35,587 bases of DNA from NCBI RefSeq assembly GCF_018860755.1, contig NZ_JAHKPW010000043.1, positions 1-35,587 of the forward strand. The letters are read 5' to 3'. The stretch is from Colwellia sp. D2M02. GTDB taxonomy: Bacteria > Pseudomonadota > Gammaproteobacteria > Enterobacterales > Alteromonadaceae. The first letter of the stretch is position 1, and each line of letters opens with the position of its first letter. Shown here piece after piece: positions 2,919-9,298 of this stretch. The notes below the pieces were generated by a model that did no database searches, had not been told where the DNA came from, and worked only from the letters and a program-made list of their open reading frames with translations. Both the position numbers and the translations under genes were made by a program.

Positions 2919-2948
2919 AAGCACTCCAAATAAGGTCAAGGGTAAAGC

Positions 2949-2977
2949 TAGACATAATATGTCATTAATGCTATTAA
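2949..2977 (+). promoter_or_regulatory. Promoter with palindromic operator for the lipoprotein-DUF350 operon
   Basis: AGACATAATATGTCA (2950-2964) contains a perfect 6-bp inverted repeat, GACATA-A-TATGTC. A -35-like TAGACA (2949-2954) starts one base before it, and TATTAA (2972-2977) follows after 17 bases as a -10. The same palindrome sits in the same register over the promoter at 6955. It also lies about 30 bp upstream of the glnE start on the other strand, so an effect on glnE is possible. The regulator is not known from the sequence. Confidence 0.6.
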
Positions 2978-3128
2978 TTGAACAACGCCGATTTTTACTG
3001 GTGAATACTTCAATAGCACAAAGTATTACTATAAATTAAGGCTGACGCTATGTTTAATCACAAATAACGCATTACTTATTTGCTAACTAATCTGATAACA
3101 TAGCATTTTTAAGGAGATGATGGCATAA

Positions 3129-4103
3129 ATGCAAGCGCTAAAAACACCTTTTTTATTGCTTTTGATCATAGCAACAACATTTAGCTTGTTTGGCTGTGGT
3201 GATCCAATAAAAGACCAAATAGAACAACAACTTCCCATTACTGAACAACGTGTTGCTCAATTAGGTAACGCCCTTAGTAATGATCAAGTCCGCAATGCGA
3301 CATTAATTAAACAATATGCTCGTAAAGTTGAACAATTAAAACCTCAACTTAGTCCATTAATTAATGAATTTTCTAAAGATGCAACGACACAAGGTCCAAT
3401 GTATAAAGCGTTGTTAGACCGTATTAATACGGTTAAAACGCAGCCACAGATGTTTGAATCAAGCCAAGCACTTTATAATGAGTTACTTAATATTTATCAA
3501 GCCGCAGATCCAGTACTTTATTCTGATGCATTAAGTGACCCACTCAATGTGCTCGCCGATATGTCTGATGGTCAATTACCGCGTATCAACTCATTGTCCA
3601 AAGCTCAAAGTCAGCAAGCTAATAACGCACAAGATTTCGGTACTGGTGAACAGCTTATTGGTAACCCTAATTACGGCAGTTGGCAAACGGGTAGTAACGG
3701 CATGTCATTTTGGGCATGGTACGGTATGTACTCAATGATGGGCGACTTATTTGGTCGTCGTACTTATTACAATGACTGGGGTCGCTCTCGAAACTATAGC
3801 TATTATAATGATTATGGCCGCACACGTTATAGTTCACCTAGCCAACTTAAAAGCCAAACGCAACTCGATACACGCACTAAAAAGTCATTTGCCAGTAAAG
3901 GGCAAAAGTACAGTAGCCCCTATAGTAAAAATCGAGCTGGCTCGTCAAGCTTATCAAGCCAGAGTAAAACCGCACAAAATAGCGCTAAACGCTTTCGCTC
4001 AGATAACGTTAAAAAAAGCAGCTATGCAAGCAAGTCGACTAAAAGTTCAGGCTTTAGAAACTCAAGTACCAACACATCTCGCGGCTTTAGACGCGGGAAA
4101 TAG
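3129..4103 (+). CDS. Predicted lipoprotein with a basic, serine-rich C-terminal tail
   Basis: I do not recognise a named family. The N-terminus is a lipoprotein signal with lipobox LFGC (Cys at residue 23, followed by Gly, which suggests the outer membrane). Residues about 25-140 look helical. Residues about 170-230 are rich in Gly, Tyr, Trp and Asn. The last 90 or so are Ser/Lys/Arg-rich, end in repeated SSGF/SRGF-like pieces, and are probably disordered. AAGGAG at 3111-3116 is the likely ribosome site. A three-codon ATG ATG GCA TAA directly abuts the start at 3129. It is the first gene of operon A, 22 bp before the DUF350 gene. In E. coli yjfIJKLMC a DUF1190 protein (YjfM) sits beside the DUF350 protein; this lipoprotein may be its functional counterpart, which is inference only. 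Confidence 0.8.
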   Translation: MQALKTPFLLLLIIATTFSLFGCGDPIKDQIEQQLPITEQRVAQLGNALSNDQVRNATLIKQYARKVEQLKPQLSPLINEFSKDATTQGPMYKALLDRINTVKTQPQMFESSQALYNELLNIYQAADPVLYSDALSDPLNVLADMSDGQLPRINSLSKAQSQQANNAQDFGTGEQLIGNPNYGSWQTGSNGMSFWAWYGMYSMMGDLFGRRTYYNDWGRSRNYSYYNDYGRTRYSSPSQLKSQTQLDTRTKKSFASKGQKYSSPYSKNRAGSSSLSSQSKTAQNSAKRFRSDNVKKSSYASKSTKSSGFRNSSTNTSRGFRRGK

Positions 4104-4125
4104 TAAAGACAGGAAATAATTACTT

Positions 4126-5028
4126 ATGAATACATTTATTGAACTCGTTGGTGTAAATCAAGATTTGTTCGCCTACCTTGCTATTGATGTTTCAATTGCT
4201 ATTTTACTCTTAGGAGCCATGCGCTTTCTATCTGGCTTAAGTGCTAAGGTAAATAGTACAGAAGAACTCGCTAAACAAGACAATTTTGCTTTTGGTATCA
4301 GTGTTGCGGGTAGTGTTTTAGCCTTAGGCATTGTGCTTACTGGCGCTATTACTGGTGAAGCAGCAAGTAGCTATGCTATGGAAGCTATTGGTATGTTAGC
4401 TTATGGCGGCTACGGCTTAATATTAATAAAAGTGGGTCGTATTATTCACGACAAAGTAGCATTACAGCACTTAGACAAAACCGCACTGATTATTGAAAAG
4501 AACCTCACCATTGGCATTATTGATGCTGCAGGTGCTATTGCAACTGCTATTATTATCCGCGCAGTATTGTTATGGGTTGATGGTTTAGATATTAGCACTT
4601 TCATTGCGATTACCAGCGGCTTTATTGTTGCACAAACCGTTTTAGTAATAATCACCCGTTTACGTGAAAAGCAATACGCTAAGAATAATCAAGAAGACTG
4701 TTTACAAGAAGCATTAAGTAAAGGGCAACTCGCCTTAGCGATTCGCTATAGCGGCCAAGTAATTAGCACCGCATTAGCCGTTACTGCTGCTAGCCACTTT
4801 CTTATTTACAGCCCAGAAACCTTAGTGGTTAATTTACTCGGCTGGTTAATTTTTGGTATTGCCATGACCTTAATTGTTGCCTTGTTAACAGCACTAGCTA
4901 AACACATTGTGCTTTGGGGTATTAATTTAGTTGAAGAAGTTGATCAGCAGCACAACATTGGTGTTGCCAGTATTGAAATGGCAACTAGCATTGCTATCGC
5001 GTTAATATTAACAGCGTTGATGGCTTAA
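4126..5028 (+). CDS. DUF350 (YjfL-like) integral membrane protein, two tandem units
   Basis: This 300-residue, very hydrophobic protein has about eight predicted membrane spans. It looks like two DUF350 units joined: each half contains a run of small residues, a Gly-rich span (for example YGGYGLILIKVGRII in the first half) and a similar spacing of charged loops. E. coli YjfL is about half this length with one unit, so this is the duplicated form. Function is unestablished. DUF350 proteins recur next to PspA-type proteins and DUF2170/DUF2491 proteins, which points to a role in membrane stress or membrane modification. It is 22 bp downstream of the lipoprotein gene and surely cotranscribed with it. 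Confidence 0.85.
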   Translation: MNTFIELVGVNQDLFAYLAIDVSIAILLLGAMRFLSGLSAKVNSTEELAKQDNFAFGISVAGSVLALGIVLTGAITGEAASSYAMEAIGMLAYGGYGLILIKVGRIIHDKVALQHLDKTALIIEKNLTIGIIDAAGAIATAIIIRAVLLWVDGLDISTFIAITSGFIVAQTVLVIITRLREKQYAKNNQEDCLQEALSKGQLALAIRYSGQVISTALAVTAASHFLIYSPETLVVNLLGWLIFGIAMTLIVALLTALAKHIVLWGINLVEEVDQQHNIGVASIEMATSIAIALILTALMA

Positions 5029-5049
5029 ACAGTTACCAGCTAAATAAAG

Positions 5050-5084
5050 ATAACGGTAGTGCGTAATACAACCGCTACTGTTAT
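5050..5084 (+). other. Hairpin between the DUF350 and spermidine-synthase-like genes
   Basis: The arms ATAACGGTAGTG (5050-5061) and CGCTACTGTTAT (5073-5084) pair over about 12 bp, two of them G-U. No U-run follows, so it is a weak terminator at most. It could be an RNA-processing or attenuation site lowering expression of the third gene of operon A. The rest of the 149-bp gap holds a pyrimidine-rich stretch and no clear promoter. Confidence 0.35.
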
Positions 5085-5177
5085 CGCTAATAAAAAACTA
5101 CCAACGTATTAAGCTAATACAGTATAGCGAACCTCGCTTACTTCCCCCTCCCCTAAAATAGTATTCATCATATTAAA

Positions 5178-6869
5178 ATGCTTGCAAAAAATACCCGTAT
5201 TATTGACGACACATTACTAATTCTCACCATGGCTATCTTGGCTGGCTGTGGACTTATTTATGAGTACTTACTTTCACATTATGCTGGGCGTGTCTTAGGA
5301 GTCATGGAAAGCACTATCTATACGATGATAGGCTTGATGATAGTTTCTATGGGGTTAGGTGCTTTTGCTGCCAGAAAAGTACGCAGTGCATACAACGGTT
5401 TTGTGTGGCTAGAACTTATTATTGCTTTACTTGGCTCAAGTGCAATCTTAATTATTGGTGGTCTAATTGCCGTCACACAAATATTGCCTGAAATTATTGC
5501 CAATATGTTTGCTTTACCACCAGACATGAAGCCTCAAGGGGGAATATTCCAACAATTAAGTTGGCTGGCTTTTAATAGCCCTTACTTTTTTGGTGTCTTG
5601 TTAGGCTTTTTTATCGGCATGGAAATCCCGCTAATTGCCCGCATTAGAGAAGATATTTATCAAAAACATTTAGCTAACAATCTTGGCACTATTTATGGTG
5701 CTGACTATATTGGTGCCGGTATTGGCGCTGCTATCTGGGTCATATTTTTACTGAGTATTGATATTAGTAAAGCCGCAGCCTTAACTGCAAGTTTAAACTT
5801 AATTGCTGGCGCTGTATTTATCTTACGCTATTGGTCACAGCTTACCTGGCGTAAAACCTTTGTTGCTTTACACTTAGTATTGGCACTGATTATTGGCTTA
5901 ATGTTTAACTATGGTAATCAGTGGTTAAACCAAATGAATAGCTTACTGTACTTAGATAAAGTAGTTCACTTCGATAAAACCCGTTATCAGCAACTCACCT
6001 TTACCGAGCGCCATATGGGGCTTGAACAAAATAATATCATTAATTTTTACCTCAATGGTCGCTTACAGTTCTCTTCTATTGATGAACACATTTATCATGA
6101 CTATTTAGTTGCCCCGGTACTGGCAGGCTCAGCAAGGCATGACAACATTTTAATTATTGGCGGTGGTGACGGTTTAGCACTGCGTGATATTTTAAAATAC
6201 TCTCCTAAAAACATCTCTCTTATCGATTTAGACGGTGAATTAATCGATATATTTAAAGAGCCAAAAGAACACGTAAACCCAAGGTTAGCGCGACAAATCA
6301 GTCAACTAAATGAAAACAGTCTACAAGATGAACGTGTTACAATTTATCGAGAAGATGCTTTTATCGCAATTAACGCACTATTAAAAAACAAACAAGTTTT
6401 TGATGCCATTATTGTCGACTTACCTGATCCAAGTCACCCTGATCTTAATAAACTTTACTCTGTTAATTTTTACGCACGCTTAAAGCTATTACTTGCCGGT
6501 GACGGTTTAATTGCAGTGCAATCAACCAGCCCATACCACGCTAAAGCGTCTTTCATCTCCATAGGAAAAACCATGGCGGCAGCAAATTACGCTCATGTAG
6601 AGCAATATCACGACAACGTACCTAGTTTTGGTGAATGGGGTTGGACTATTGCAGCAAAAACAGGCGCAAGCCCTTTAGCGAGATTAAATAAGTTATCACA
6701 CCTATCTGTGCAGCATACGTGGTTAAACTTAGCACTTTTAAAAAATGCTTTTATTTTTCCTAATGACTTTTATAAAGATAAAGACGATATTAGAGTAAAC
6801 ACCCTTGGCAGCCATACTATTTACCAGCTTCATCAACAAGCATGGCAAGATCAACAAGGGTTAAATTAA
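5178..6869 (+). CDS. Membrane-anchored spermidine synthase-like (aminopropyltransferase/methyltransferase fold) protein
   Basis: The N-terminal 220 or so residues form about seven membrane spans. The C-terminal half is a spermidine-synthase-type Rossmann domain. Visible motifs are GGGDG (about residues 327-331) for the nucleotide substrate, an acidic DLDGE at the end of the next strand, EDAF, and DLPDPSHPDLNKLYS (about 414) where classical SpeE has its catalytic Asp loop. SpeE proteins are about 290 residues and soluble, so this is the membrane-fused form. The likely substrate is decarboxylated S-adenosylmethionine or S-adenosylmethionine; the acceptor is unknown. No good Shine-Dalgarno precedes the ATG at 5178, but the next ATG (5229) would cut into the first membrane span. 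Third gene of operon A; its placement suggests polyamine-type modification linked to the PspA proteins. Confidence 0.88.
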   Translation: MLAKNTRIIDDTLLILTMAILAGCGLIYEYLLSHYAGRVLGVMESTIYTMIGLMIVSMGLGAFAARKVRSAYNGFVWLELIIALLGSSAILIIGGLIAVTQILPEIIANMFALPPDMKPQGGIFQQLSWLAFNSPYFFGVLLGFFIGMEIPLIARIREDIYQKHLANNLGTIYGADYIGAGIGAAIWVIFLLSIDISKAAALTASLNLIAGAVFILRYWSQLTWRKTFVALHLVLALIIGLMFNYGNQWLNQMNSLLYLDKVVHFDKTRYQQLTFTERHMGLEQNNIINFYLNGRLQFSSIDEHIYHDYLVAPVLAGSARHDNILIIGGGDGLALRDILKYSPKNISLIDLDGELIDIFKEPKEHVNPRLARQISQLNENSLQDERVTIYREDAFIAINALLKNKQVFDAIIVDLPDPSHPDLNKLYSVNFYARLKLLLAGDGLIAVQSTSPYHAKASFISIGKTMAAANYAHVEQYHDNVPSFGEWGWTIAAKTGASPLARLNKLSHLSVQHTWLNLALLKNAFIFPNDFYKDKDDIRVNTLGSHTIYQLHQQAWQDQQGLN

Positions 6870-6954
6870 ACAATAATAGAGATACATCACAACAACTTAA
6901 AAAGCATGATTACATGAAACACACAAAATAAAGTAAATAATTACTAATTGCTCC

Positions 6955-7006
6955 TTGACATAATATGTCAGGGTGCTAAATTTAACCAAGTCGACATATT
7001 ATGTCA
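6955..7006 (+). promoter_or_regulatory. Promoter of the yjfI-pspA operon with two palindromic operators
   Basis: A consensus -35, TTGACA (6955-6960), overlaps the palindrome TGACATAATATGTCA (6956-6970; perfect 7-bp arms around a central A). TAAATT at 6977-6982 is the likely -10 (16-bp spacer). A second palindrome, CGACATATTATGTCA (6992-7006), lies just past the expected transcription start. The centres are 36 bp apart. A repressor on both sites would block polymerase binding and then its escape. The first gene starts at 7038 behind AGGATAGGAAA. Confidence 0.7.
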
Positions 7007-7037
7007 CTGACACTTTTACATTGAGGATAGGAAATAA

Positions 7038-7451
7038 ATGAATATTCATACTATAGCCGATCATTTAAATAGCCTGGCAGATAATTCAGACACTGGAATG
7101 AGCTTTGATTGTCAGCCGATTTCAGGCGAAGTAGATGTATTGCAAATTAGCATCTTAGGAAGAGAAGAGTTACCTATTTTTGTTTCAGTTACCGAAGACC
7201 AAATTTTATGCATTAGCTACTTATGGGGCGTTGAAGAGGTTAAACCCGAATGCATAGCACCTATGCATGAAAGCATGCTAGAAATGAGCATTCCAATGCC
7301 ACTATCATCTTTCTCAAAAATTGGTGATAAATATGTCGTATTTGGCGCTTTATCCATAAGCTCAAGCTTAGCTGATGTAGAACACGAATTAACGGTACTA
7401 AGTAATAACGCCGTTGAAGTTATTGATGATATGAGTGACTTTTTACTTTAA
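7038..7451 (+). CDS. DUF2170 protein (YjfI-like)
   Basis: A 137-residue acidic cytoplasmic protein with no signal peptide. It fits the DUF2170/YjfI family in length, in the alternating strand and helix pattern, and in its position directly before a PspA/YjfJ gene, as in E. coli yjfIJ. The biochemical function is not established; the family is thought to work with the PspA-type protein. A strong ribosome site (AGGATAGGAAA) supports the ATG at 7038. First gene of operon B, 49 bp before the PspA gene, under the double-operator promoter. Confidence 0.85.
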   Translation: MNIHTIADHLNSLADNSDTGMSFDCQPISGEVDVLQISILGREELPIFVSVTEDQILCISYLWGVEEVKPECIAPMHESMLEMSIPMPLSSFSKIGDKYVVFGALSISSSLADVEHELTVLSNNAVEVIDDMSDFLL

Positions 7452-7500: not shown

Positions 7501-8193
7501 ATGAGTATTTTTAAAAAAATCATGACCGCAGTACGTGGTGGCGCATCAGAAGCTGGTGAAGCAATTATCGATGCCAACGCAACTCGAATTTTTGAACAAG
7601 AAATTCGTGATGCAGAAAATCATTTAACTAAAGCAAAGCGCGATTTAACTGGCGTGATGGCTGAGCAAATGGCAGCAAAACGTGAGGTAGACCGTCTACA
7701 ACGTGAAATTACTGAGCACGAAGGTTATGCTGGACAAGCCCTTGAAAAAGGTGATGAAACATTAGCCCTTGCCGTAGCTGAAAAAATTGCCGCTTTAGAA
7801 AGTGACCTATCAGCACAGCAACAAGCACATGACAGTTTCGCTGGCAACGCTGAGCGTTTAAAAGAGTTAGTTAAGAAAAGTGAACGTCAAGTTGCTGAAC
7901 ATAAACGTCAACTCTCTATGGTTAAAACCACAGAAAGTGTACAAAAAGCAACGTCAGCAATTACCGATAACTTTTCATCAAGTAACTCTAAACTGCTTAG
8001 CGCTAAAGACTCTTTAGAGCGCATTAAAGCTAAGCAACAAAAATTTGATGATAAAATGAAGGCAGCTGAAGTGCTTGAGTCTGAAAACTCTGACACATCA
8101 CTTGAAGCTCAGCTTAAAGCCGCAGGAATTGGCAACCAAGATAGCAGTGCCAACTCAGTGCTTGATCGCATTAAAGCGAAACAAAAACAATAG
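7501..8193 (+). CDS. PspA/IM30 family membrane-stress protein (YjfJ-like)
   Basis: This 230-residue protein is almost wholly helical and coiled-coil (residues about 25-185), as in PspA/IM30/Vipp1, which assemble on the inner face of the cytoplasmic membrane and limit proton leakage (ESCRT-III-like). The N-terminal amphipathic helix (MSIFKKIMTAVRGGASE) and the following DANATRIFEQEIRDAE match the family. A Ser- and Ala-rich linker leads to a conserved C-terminal piece, VLDRIKAKQKQ, which repeats the internal LERIKAKQQK. AGGAG lies just upstream of the ATG. The pspF-type regulator and the pspB and pspC partners are absent here; the partners are the YjfI and YjfK types. Confidence 0.93.
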   Translation: MSIFKKIMTAVRGGASEAGEAIIDANATRIFEQEIRDAENHLTKAKRDLTGVMAEQMAAKREVDRLQREITEHEGYAGQALEKGDETLALAVAEKIAALESDLSAQQQAHDSFAGNAERLKELVKKSERQVAEHKRQLSMVKTTESVQKATSAITDNFSSSNSKLLSAKDSLERIKAKQQKFDDKMKAAEVLESENSDTSLEAQLKAAGIGNQDSSANSVLDRIKAKQKQ

Positions 8194-8200
8194 TTAAACC

Positions 8201-8226
8201 AATGGGCACACTCAGTGCCCATTTTT
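8201..8226 (+). terminator. Intrinsic terminator between pspA-like and yjfK-like genes
   Basis: AATGGGCAC (8201-8209) pairs perfectly with GTGCCCATT (8215-8223) around the loop ACTCA, and the U-run is within 8222-8226. It lies inside operon B and would let PspA be made in excess over the two downstream genes. Confidence 0.75.
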
Positions 8227-8240
8227 CGTTAGGAAAGCCG

Positions 8241-8882
8241 ATGAATTTTTTAAAGAAAATATTTAATAAAACAGCTGAAGCACCACGTAAACTTAGCCAA
8301 GTTAATCAATTATTAACGGGTGACATTATTGTGCTAACAGACAGTTTTGCTTTACCAGAGTCTCTTCGCGGTCAGCAGTTTCAAGTGAAAGCTATTAACA
8401 GCTATGAATTTGAACATAATACGCAAAGCGAGTGGGCTTTAGTTGGTGCTAACGACTTGGAAATATTTTTATCACTCGATGTTGATGACAATACCGAATT
8501 AAAATTTTCTTTAAAAATTCATCATGAAGACATTGAAACTTTATTTGATTTAGATGATTTTTCGCAAGTTTTTGATGAGCCAGGGCAAGCATTTTTAAAC
8601 AAACAAAAAGACTCGGCTTTAACTGCTAACTGGAGTAGCGAGCAATACCAGCAAAGTGTATTCGCTAAAGTAGGTTATTTTCATCGTAAAGATCATCGCA
8701 GTGAAAGCCTTAGTGCCTATGAGGGACAAGACAGCGGTGAACAGTTTGAGCTATACAGTTTATTTAATGAGGATCAAAGTAAAGGGATTGATGTTGAAGT
8801 ATGGCAAGATGGCGACACTGAAGTTTGTTTAACCTTATTTCGTCCATTAAGCGATATTGTTGATATGTACCCTGCAACTTAG
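8241..8882 (+). CDS. DUF2491 protein (YjfK-like)
   Basis: A soluble protein of 213 residues with no signal peptide, acidic and beta-rich, matching the DUF2491/YjfK family in content and position after YjfI and PspA. Function is unknown; the family is related to DUF4178 and recurs with PspA and DUF350 proteins. The open frame could begin at an ATG at 8202, but that codon lies inside the terminator hairpin. AGGAAAG (8231-8237) points to the ATG at 8241, giving MNFLKKIFNK. It is probably expressed by read-through of that terminator. Confidence 0.85.
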   Translation: MNFLKKIFNKTAEAPRKLSQVNQLLTGDIIVLTDSFALPESLRGQQFQVKAINSYEFEHNTQSEWALVGANDLEIFLSLDVDDNTELKFSLKIHHEDIETLFDLDDFSQVFDEPGQAFLNKQKDSALTANWSSEQYQQSVFAKVGYFHRKDHRSESLSAYEGQDSGEQFELYSLFNEDQSKGIDVEVWQDGDTEVCLTLFRPLSDIVDMYPAT

Positions 8883-8965: not shown

Positions 8966-9298
8966 ATGAGCAGAAAAGTCCCCGACAAATGGCAATCATC
9001 CGTCAAGGCAATGAAAGCGGTGCAAGTCGCCTTTGATATGGATGAAAAAATACAACTATCTATTCGTAAAGAAGCATTAGAAGCTGGTTTAAGCCCTTCT
9101 GATCAAATACGCGATATCTTAGGTCTCCCCATTAATAAAAGACCTAAACGACCGCGTTTAACTGTGAGTTTAGCGCCGAGTGATTACGAAGTACTAGCGG
9201 AAAAATACCAGTTAGCTGCCGATCAACAACTTGAAATTAAGAAGAAGTTGATGGACGACCTAATCAACTACGTGAATCAACAACCATCACAGAATTAA
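8966..9298 (+). CDS. Small basic protein with two ribbon-helix-helix-like units, candidate regulator of the cluster
   Basis: I do not recognise a named family. The 110 residues read as two strand-helix-helix units. Unit 1 is the strand KAVQVAFDM (17-25), a helix (27-39) and a helix starting SPSDQIRDIL (43-53). Unit 2 is the strand RLTVSLA (64-70) and helices at 71-83 and 85-103. Pro- and Lys/Arg-rich residues 55-63 link them. This is the pattern of ribbon-helix-helix DNA-binding proteins, here possibly as a single-chain pair. GAGGAAG (8954-8960), five bases before the ATG, is a strong ribosome site. It follows the yjfK-like gene by 83 bp with no clear promoter between. It is the only DNA-binding candidate in the cluster, so it may bind the TGACATANTATGTCA sites; this is inference. 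Confidence 0.65.
   Translation: MSRKVPDKWQSSVKAMKAVQVAFDMDEKIQLSIRKEALEAGLSPSDQIRDILGLPINKRPKRPRLTVSLAPSDYEVLAEKYQLAADQQLEIKKKLMDDLINYVNQQPSQN

Follow-up and report, generated by a model that had tools for sequence, protein, structure and literature searches.

PspA operons with a DUF2170 gene

The described systems closest to the locus treated here combine a gene for a PspA-type protein with genes for membrane-associated partners. Ravi et al. (2024, PMC11237479), in the part of that paper available to us, report a PspA neighbourhood with a CesT/Tir-like DUF2170 protein and a membrane spermidine synthase, in some cases with a gene for a ribbon-helix-helix (RHH) protein in last place. According to the accessible part of a 2025 account (PMC12492005), heat-evolved strains strongly upregulate the E. 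coli genes yjfIJKL, an effect attributed to the deletion of a single promoter base. The B. subtilis sigma-W regulon, as the available text of PMC3498285 describes it, joins pspA, the flotillin operon yuaF-yuaG(floT)-yuaI and yqeZ-yqfA-yqfB, and is induced by envelope, alkaline and salt stress. In the literature that we found, what is described for the control of DUF2170-type PspA operons is a proposed sigma-54 site in Pseudomonas and the promoter mutation of E. coli. Here we analyse such an operon in Colwellia sp. D2M02, on a stretch of 35,587 nucleotides (contig NZ_JAHKPW010000043.1, positions 1 to 35,587, analysed whole and called the window below). A first-pass annotation, made from the sequence alone, had drawn attention to a palindrome over two promoters of a PspA-containing cluster in this window. 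We propose that the palindrome is probably the operator of an autoregulated RHH-type repressor, encoded at 8966-9298, that governs a membrane-integrity regulon.

Palindromes in the window and the genome

The reference word for the palindrome is TGACATANTATGTCA, 15 base pairs (bp) long with the core GACATA-N-TATGTC. All three copies claimed for the window are present where they had been placed; as palindromes they are assigned no strand. The first, AGACATAATATGTCA (2950-2964, one mismatch), belongs to the lipoprotein-DUF350-SpeE operon and overlaps the -35 hexamer TAGACA (2949-2954). The other two precede the DUF2170-PspA operon. Operator 1, TGACATAATATGTCA (6956-6970, no mismatches), encloses the -35 hexamer TTGACA (6955-6960), and operator 2, CGACATATTATGTCA (6992-7006, one mismatch), lies at about +3 to +17 of the inferred transcript, just downstream of a start expected near 6989. 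The hexamers begin one base before their palindromes, at 2949 and 6955, as had been described, and the -10 elements placed 16-17 bases further on are better read as extended -10s: TGC-TATTAA at 2969-2977, with a spacer of 17 from TAGACA, and TGC-TAAATT at 6974-6982, with a spacer of 16 from TTGACA. On this reading of the sequence both promoters look like the extended -10 type.

No further copy had been noticed in the window, and none exists at two or fewer mismatches. At three mismatches there are two (20268 and 34650), and the resulting count of five is only mildly above chance (shuffle mean 2.23; five of 100 shuffles reach five). Across the whole assembly (4.01 Mb), six sites match with at most one mismatch, against none for the reversed pattern, and 27 match with at most two, against six. 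All six near-perfect sites stand upstream of genes. Three are those of the window; the remainder precede genes for an SPFH/Band_7 protein (contig C32, an exact match), a Bax1-I family membrane protein (C3) and a 119-amino-acid (aa) protein whose start resembles a secretion signal (C44; judged by reading, without a Pfam match). The two-mismatch sites lie mostly within reading frames, with few intergenic, and we therefore treated them as background and did not count them as regulon members.

For comparison across genomes we used samples of 98 genomes from the family, 295 from the order and 369 from the class. The 44 family genomes that encode the candidate regulator hold 270 sites with at most one mismatch, against 15 sites for the reversed pattern in the same genomes, while the 54 family genomes without it hold 13. 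Chance does not account for the three palindromes of the window, which are real.

The motif follows the RHH-like gene

Within the family, the exact motif occurs in 36 of the 44 genomes that encode the RHH-like protein and in none of the 54 that do not (Fisher p 2e-19, with genomes counted without phylogenetic correction). Counted by genus, it is present in 20 of 25 with the protein and in 0 of 27 without (p 4e-10). DUF2170 is found in 78 of the 98 family genomes, and 34 of the 54 protein-less genomes have DUF2170 without an exact motif, which argues that the motif follows the RHH-like gene and not the DUF2170-PspA pair. The same association extends through the order, where the protein is encoded in 91 of 295 genomes (11 of 27 families). 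Of the 24 genomes with the exact motif, 23 are among the 91 with the protein and one is among the 204 without (G274). Besides G274, exact copies outside the family come from five of the ten other protein-bearing families (f6, f7, f12, f15 and f16), and sites with at most two mismatches stand upstream of DUF2170 in f2, f11 and f25 as well. In the class-wide sample the protein was found in 13 of 369 genomes.

Conservation of the cluster promoters

Copies scattered at random, a prospect raised in the first-pass annotation, are not what relatives show: the near-perfect sites are not scattered, and two sites, each with at most two mismatches, stand upstream of DUF2170 in all 44 orthologous clusters of the family. 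A site of the same quality precedes the lipoprotein gene in 35 of the 44. The conservation of sites at both promoters supports the earlier proposal that one regulon joins the lipoprotein-DUF350-SpeE and DUF2170-PspA-YjfK operons. In operator 1, the preceding T, bases 0-5 and bases 9-13 are identical in 44/44 clusters, so that TTGACA is always there; the majority sequence that follows is TGNTAAATT, with an extended -10, and each named base of this sequence is present in 36-42 of the 44. In operator 2, GACATA and ATGTC are likewise identical in every cluster, at a position with no expected promoter role. Operator 1 averages 1.82 bits of information per base, compared with 0.44 over the 39 bases from -40 to -2, in a profile whose sites were chosen at two or fewer mismatches, which raises apparent conservation somewhat, and from which no cluster was left out. 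At the 35 DUF2170 loci that have no regulator gene (from 34 genomes, plus a second copy in G022) there is no pair, and one single two-mismatch site. These sites, their positions, their conservation and their co-occurrence with the RHH-like gene were all obtained by computation.

The pair is also present in all of the named relatives (the best 80 of 346, from Colwellia, Litorilituus, Thalassotalea, Thalassomonas and others; 22 of them duplicate family-sample clusters); in 79 it lies no more than 260 bases from DUF2170, and in L279 at 319-355 bases. Outside the family, we examined clusters from 20 of the 83 protein-bearing genomes of the order. Twelve of these have a pair with at most two mismatches, spaced 30-39, next to regulators 38-71% identical; L365 cannot be judged, as its DUF2170 begins at a contig end and the promoter lies beyond. 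The spacing in the family is 35 bp in 21 clusters, 36 in 17 and 33, 34, 37 or 39 in the remaining six. A DNA loop joining the two operators was rejected on this ground: spacings of 33-39 in the family and 30-39 in the order are not helically constant. The spacing tracks the distance from -35 to +1, which points to two independent blocks rather than a loop.

One target outside the cluster allowed a similar comparison. We compared Bax1-I between 30 of the 44 regulator-bearing family genomes and 30 of the 54 that have no regulator gene, taken in list order, and counted a site if it had at most two mismatches and lay within 300 bp. G048, which has no Bax1-I gene, was excluded, and G029, which has fragments only, was counted as a miss. 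Of the 29 regulator-bearing genomes 24 have the site, and of the 30 others none does. In two of the former (L423 in G025 and L426 in G035), Bax1-I is only 53-56% identical to the query, yet site and regulator are both present, as if the operator had been regained after gene replacement.

The candidate regulator

The candidate regulator is a 110-aa RHH-like protein encoded by the last gene of the DUF2170-PspA-YjfK operon (8966-9298, plus strand), singled out by motif co-occurrence, weak RHH profile matches and Foldseek. By sequence, its assignment as an RHH-type regulator is weak. NikA-like profiles match eight of 30 members (best E 0.003), RHH_1 and FitA-like profiles one of 30 each (E 0.027 and 0.17), Arc-like profiles four of 39 (best E 0.0017) and CopG-like profiles three of 39 (0.0056); an NCBIfam search gave chance-level matches only, and sequence searches of the PDB gave nothing useful. 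Ravi et al. (2024, PMC11237479), in the available part of their paper, also call the gene at the final place of the neighbourhood RHH.

Two alignments were used, one of 30 of the 44 family proteins (A1) and one of 39 sequences (A2). A first structure model was poor, and the wider alignment gave a better one: the AF2 model from A2 has a mean pLDDT of 81.6, with helices at residues 27-39/44-51 and 71-80/88-105. Foldseek places NikA, the Rv0298 antitoxin and CopG among its nearest solved structures (probability 0.77-0.95). From this arrangement we infer two possible strand-helix-helix units in one chain. The possible first DNA-contacting strand is encoded at 9014-9037 (plus strand; residues 17-24), where A18, Q20 and A22 are invariant in the 39 sequences of A2, and the possible second at 9149-9172 (plus strand; residues 62-69), where R62 and R64 are invariant in the same sequences. 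Both strands are unformed in the monomer model, and their contact with DNA is presumptive. RHH regulators place a beta ribbon on short repeated or inverted sites; the palindromes described above contain conserved inverted half-sites. A single chain holding a whole RHH dimer fold is described for TraY, a conjugation protein of the F plasmid (PMC12117103, in its available part). The candidate regulator resembles TraY in its two possible units; comparison of its half-profiles did not show internal duplication, being not significant in register (global P 0.043; local P 0.00045, out of register).

The wider regulon

Flanking genes were examined at 42 exact non-cluster sites and at 26 one-mismatch sites in protein-bearing genomes (a subset of all such sites), with eight of the 13 one-mismatch sites in protein-less genomes as controls. 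Genes were called by a crude longest-frame method, and Pfam names come from one member per neighbour family (20 neighbours). One exact site (L180) has no gene within 450 bp. NfeD genes adjoin sites in 17 genomes, with an SPFH-like stretch nearby in 16 of the 17, and among the examined flanks Bax1-I is a neighbour in nine genomes and SPFH in seven. Two neighbour groups together cover nine loci; one is YqiJ by Pfam and the other has no Pfam match, and in the one locus read of each of these two groups a Band_7 protein lies downstream. The NhaA Na+/H+ antiporter (four), Yip1 (three) and YidC-like proteins (two) recur, and a second PspA, an alpha-carbonic anhydrase and a delta-carbonic anhydrase appear as single cases. 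Small secreted-looking proteins of about 100 aa adjoin sites at six loci and fall into three groups that were connected by reading alone. Divergent zinc-ribbon and Lrp/AsnC genes (four each) also adjoin sites, outside the membrane theme. The neighbours of the eight control sites have no blastp family in common with the regulon neighbours, and three of these eight sites lie inside frames of more than 200 aa.

Several individual loci add detail. Secreted-looking proteins of about 95-120 aa are encoded downstream of the operator at L006 (1696-2055), L207 (2071-2364), L199 (2069-2350) and L231; a Pfam search at E 0.001 gave no match for the three small secreted-looking proteins submitted. Some non-cluster sites lie between divergent genes and have TTGACA on both strands. 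At L168, a perfect 49-bp palindrome is centred on the operator (about 1901-1915) and is flanked by a gene of the YqiJ-like group on one side and a divergent zinc-ribbon gene on the other, suggesting that one site could serve two mirror-image -35 elements. At L225 (about 1901, in G020), a one-mismatch site precedes a gene for a sigma factor, rpoH-like by reading; this is a single case and may be chance.

Genes of the cluster

All cluster genes lie on the plus strand. The upstream operon begins with a gene for a lipoprotein-like protein of 324 aa (3129-4103; by reading, no Pfam match), followed by genes for a DUF350 membrane protein (4126-5028; PF03994) and a spermidine synthase-like protein with an N-terminal membrane part (5178-6869; PF01564, NF002956). 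The second operon encodes a DUF2170/YjfI/BacA-like protein (7038-7451; PF09938), a PspA/IM30 family protein (7501-8193; PF04012) and a protein that the first-pass annotation had named YjfK-like (8202-8882), which has a weak DUF4178 match (E 5.6e-4; 20.5 bits against a cut-off of 25), ahead of the regulator gene. The operator at 2950-2964 lies between the lipoprotein-DUF350-SpeE operon and a divergent glnE gene. Some 10 bases separate it from the start of the glnE frame as listed (window 2939-3129), so glnE could be affected too.

The gene order varies elsewhere in the order. In L362, L367 and L368, which represent two families, a short operon consists of DUF2170, one gene and the RHH gene, with no PspA by tblastn. 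Where read (L362 and L368), the middle gene appears coiled-coil-like, and a glnE-like gene lies divergent beside the short operon. In L366, the RHH-like gene comes directly after a YjfK-like gene, and the 14 kb examined contain neither a DUF2170 match nor an operator at three or fewer mismatches.

Proposed mechanism and alternatives

We propose that, in the unstressed cell, the RHH-type repressor would keep its regulon low and limit its own synthesis. Two operators would cover the -35 and start-site region of the promoter of its own operon, and single operators would cover the -35 region of the lipoprotein-DUF350-SpeE operon and lie upstream of unlinked membrane-protection genes. The place of the gene at the end of an operon with two presumed operators at its promoter suggests negative autoregulation of a good sigma-70-type promoter. 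Targets in the Colwellia genome would include SPFH, Bax1-I and the small secreted-looking protein, and in relatives also NfeD-SPFH, YqiJ-SPFH, NhaA, Yip1 and others. Membrane damage or ion leakage would lift repression. Membrane proteins make up most of the recognised targets, and several of these are tied to membrane stability or ion balance, which makes membrane damage or an ion leak the probable signal. Binding of the sites by the regulator, repression and the signal are what we infer. DUF2170 is a candidate derepressor, since the available part of PMC10948618 reports that P. aeruginosa BacA has a chaperone-like fold and that its loss raises bac proteins. More tentatively, and with the balance on the doubtful side, the whole may form an undescribed envelope-integrity response in which a two-unit RHH repressor takes the role of sigma-W, joins PspA, SPFH/NfeD, flotillin-like, Bax1-I and ion/pH genes, and is relieved on membrane damage by DUF2170 or PspA of its own operon acting as anti-repressor.

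A number of observations weigh against the repressor model. The RHH-named profile matches of the regulator are weak and no better than those of unrelated families, the Foldseek E-values for RHH structures are 0.8-2.7, and the monomer models have no paired strands. The co-occurrence counts are uncorrected for phylogeny; eight of the 44 family genomes with the protein have no exact motif (their cluster sites have one or two mismatches), and outside the family the exact motif is present in only 16 of 83 order genomes with the protein. Among the 20 order clusters, five have one site with at most two mismatches (L359, L360, L362, L367 and L368), L358 has only a three-mismatch site, and L366, in which DUF2170 was not found, has none. 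Five of the 29 genomes in the Bax1-I comparison have no site there (G018, G020, G022, G029 and G050), the first four of which carry a divergent regulator (33-37% identical), and Bax1-I of the regulator-less genomes is 52-73% identical to the query, so that some are perhaps not strict orthologues. The neighbours include off-theme genes, namely PriC and catalase-, imidazolonepropionase- and citrate synthase-like genes (the last three by reading). Finally, many of the non-cluster sites lack a clear -10 at a set distance (68 contexts), and occlusion of the -35 element is therefore best supported for the cluster promoters.

The softness of the RHH assignment leaves some room for another, unlinked factor with the same distribution, which would bind the palindrome and leave the RHH-like protein another task, such as binding a partner. 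Any clade marker would co-occur, given the many genes that related genomes have in common; the 7-1-7 spacing, moreover, recalls Fur-family sites such as Zur. We consider this unlikely, given that ten other families have the protein and five of these also the exact motif, always in protein-bearing genomes, against one copy in 204 genomes without the protein, and that the regulator gene lies in the most conserved target operon, where no second regulator gene was recognised from the gene list and Pfam. Zur/Fur-type control itself was provisionally rejected, as the targets do not seem to fit and the half-site appears to differ from the Zur box; no zinc-uptake gene was recognised beside the sites examined (by reading, with Pfam for 20 neighbours).

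Alternatively, the RHH-like protein may bind as an activator, or as activator and repressor alike, at some promoters. Some RHH proteins have both activities, and the many non-cluster sites without an obvious -10 at a fixed distance would suit this alternative, yet the layout of the cluster is that of a repressed promoter, in which TTGACA is enclosed in 44/44, an extended -10 follows in the majority sequence and another operator lies close to the start, and we regard activation or a dual role as unlikely. The TTGACA within operator 1 might also suggest that the palindrome is merely a promoter element read by a dedicated sigma factor. This is very unlikely: operator 2 shares the invariant symmetric core without an expected promoter role, and an ordinary extended -10 follows site 1. 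Chance copies of an AT-rich word, which the near-chance window count at three mismatches could be taken to favour, have a negligible probability beside 270 one-mismatch copies in 44 genomes, against 15 for the reversed pattern and 13 in the 54 other genomes, and beside the placement and conservation of the sites. We retain the autoregulated RHH-type repressor as the preferred explanation.

Comparison with known systems

The classical Psp system, with PspF and sigma-54, likewise controls PspA. The first-pass annotation had judged that the Colwellia promoters do not look like sigma-54/PspF control; the region 6701-7036 contains no GG-N10-GC sigma-54 core, and such control was rejected. Seven of 11 bases of the sigma-54 consensus are reached in three of 43 other loci with the regulator and in two of 35 without. 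No PspF-like gene was recognised within the cluster, no search for PspF having been made elsewhere in the genome. The bac operon of P. aeruginosa resembles the present one in that the DUF2170 protein BacA is followed by a PspA homologue; its authors propose a sigma-54 site and state that neither the operon nor its surroundings contain a spermidine synthase (PMC10948618), and the word ribbon is absent from the main text. The E. coli genes yjfIJKL encode DUF2170 (YjfI), PspA-like (YjfJ), YjfK and DUF350 (YjfL) proteins, as in the Colwellia cluster, and their account, so far as its text is available, names no working regulator and no RHH protein (PMC12492005).

The neighbourhood of Ravi et al. 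is the same operon as the Colwellia cluster, as far as the available part of PMC11237479 allows comparison; in that part we found no operator, outside targets or co-occurrence test, and the words operator and NfeD are absent from the main text. A literature search for spellings of the motif returned only an unrelated plant paper, and we found no earlier report of the operator and regulon of the RHH gene in the literature searched. The regulator gene and the wider membrane-protection regulon outside the window also go beyond what the first-pass annotation had read. The gain is an operator, a named candidate regulator and a list of targets that connects PspA to SPFH/NfeD, Bax1-I and proteins of ion balance across many marine bacteria. 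Several families about which little is known (DUF350, DUF2170, the Bax1-I proteins of bacteria and the small secreted proteins) thereby become testable as one response.

In gene content, the target set is comparable with the sigma-W regulon of B. subtilis. The proposed means of control differs: according to the available part of PMC3498285, sigma-W is an extracytoplasmic function (ECF) sigma factor and does not use palindromic operators. The cluster promoters described here carry TTGACA and a majority extended -10 of the sigma-70 type.

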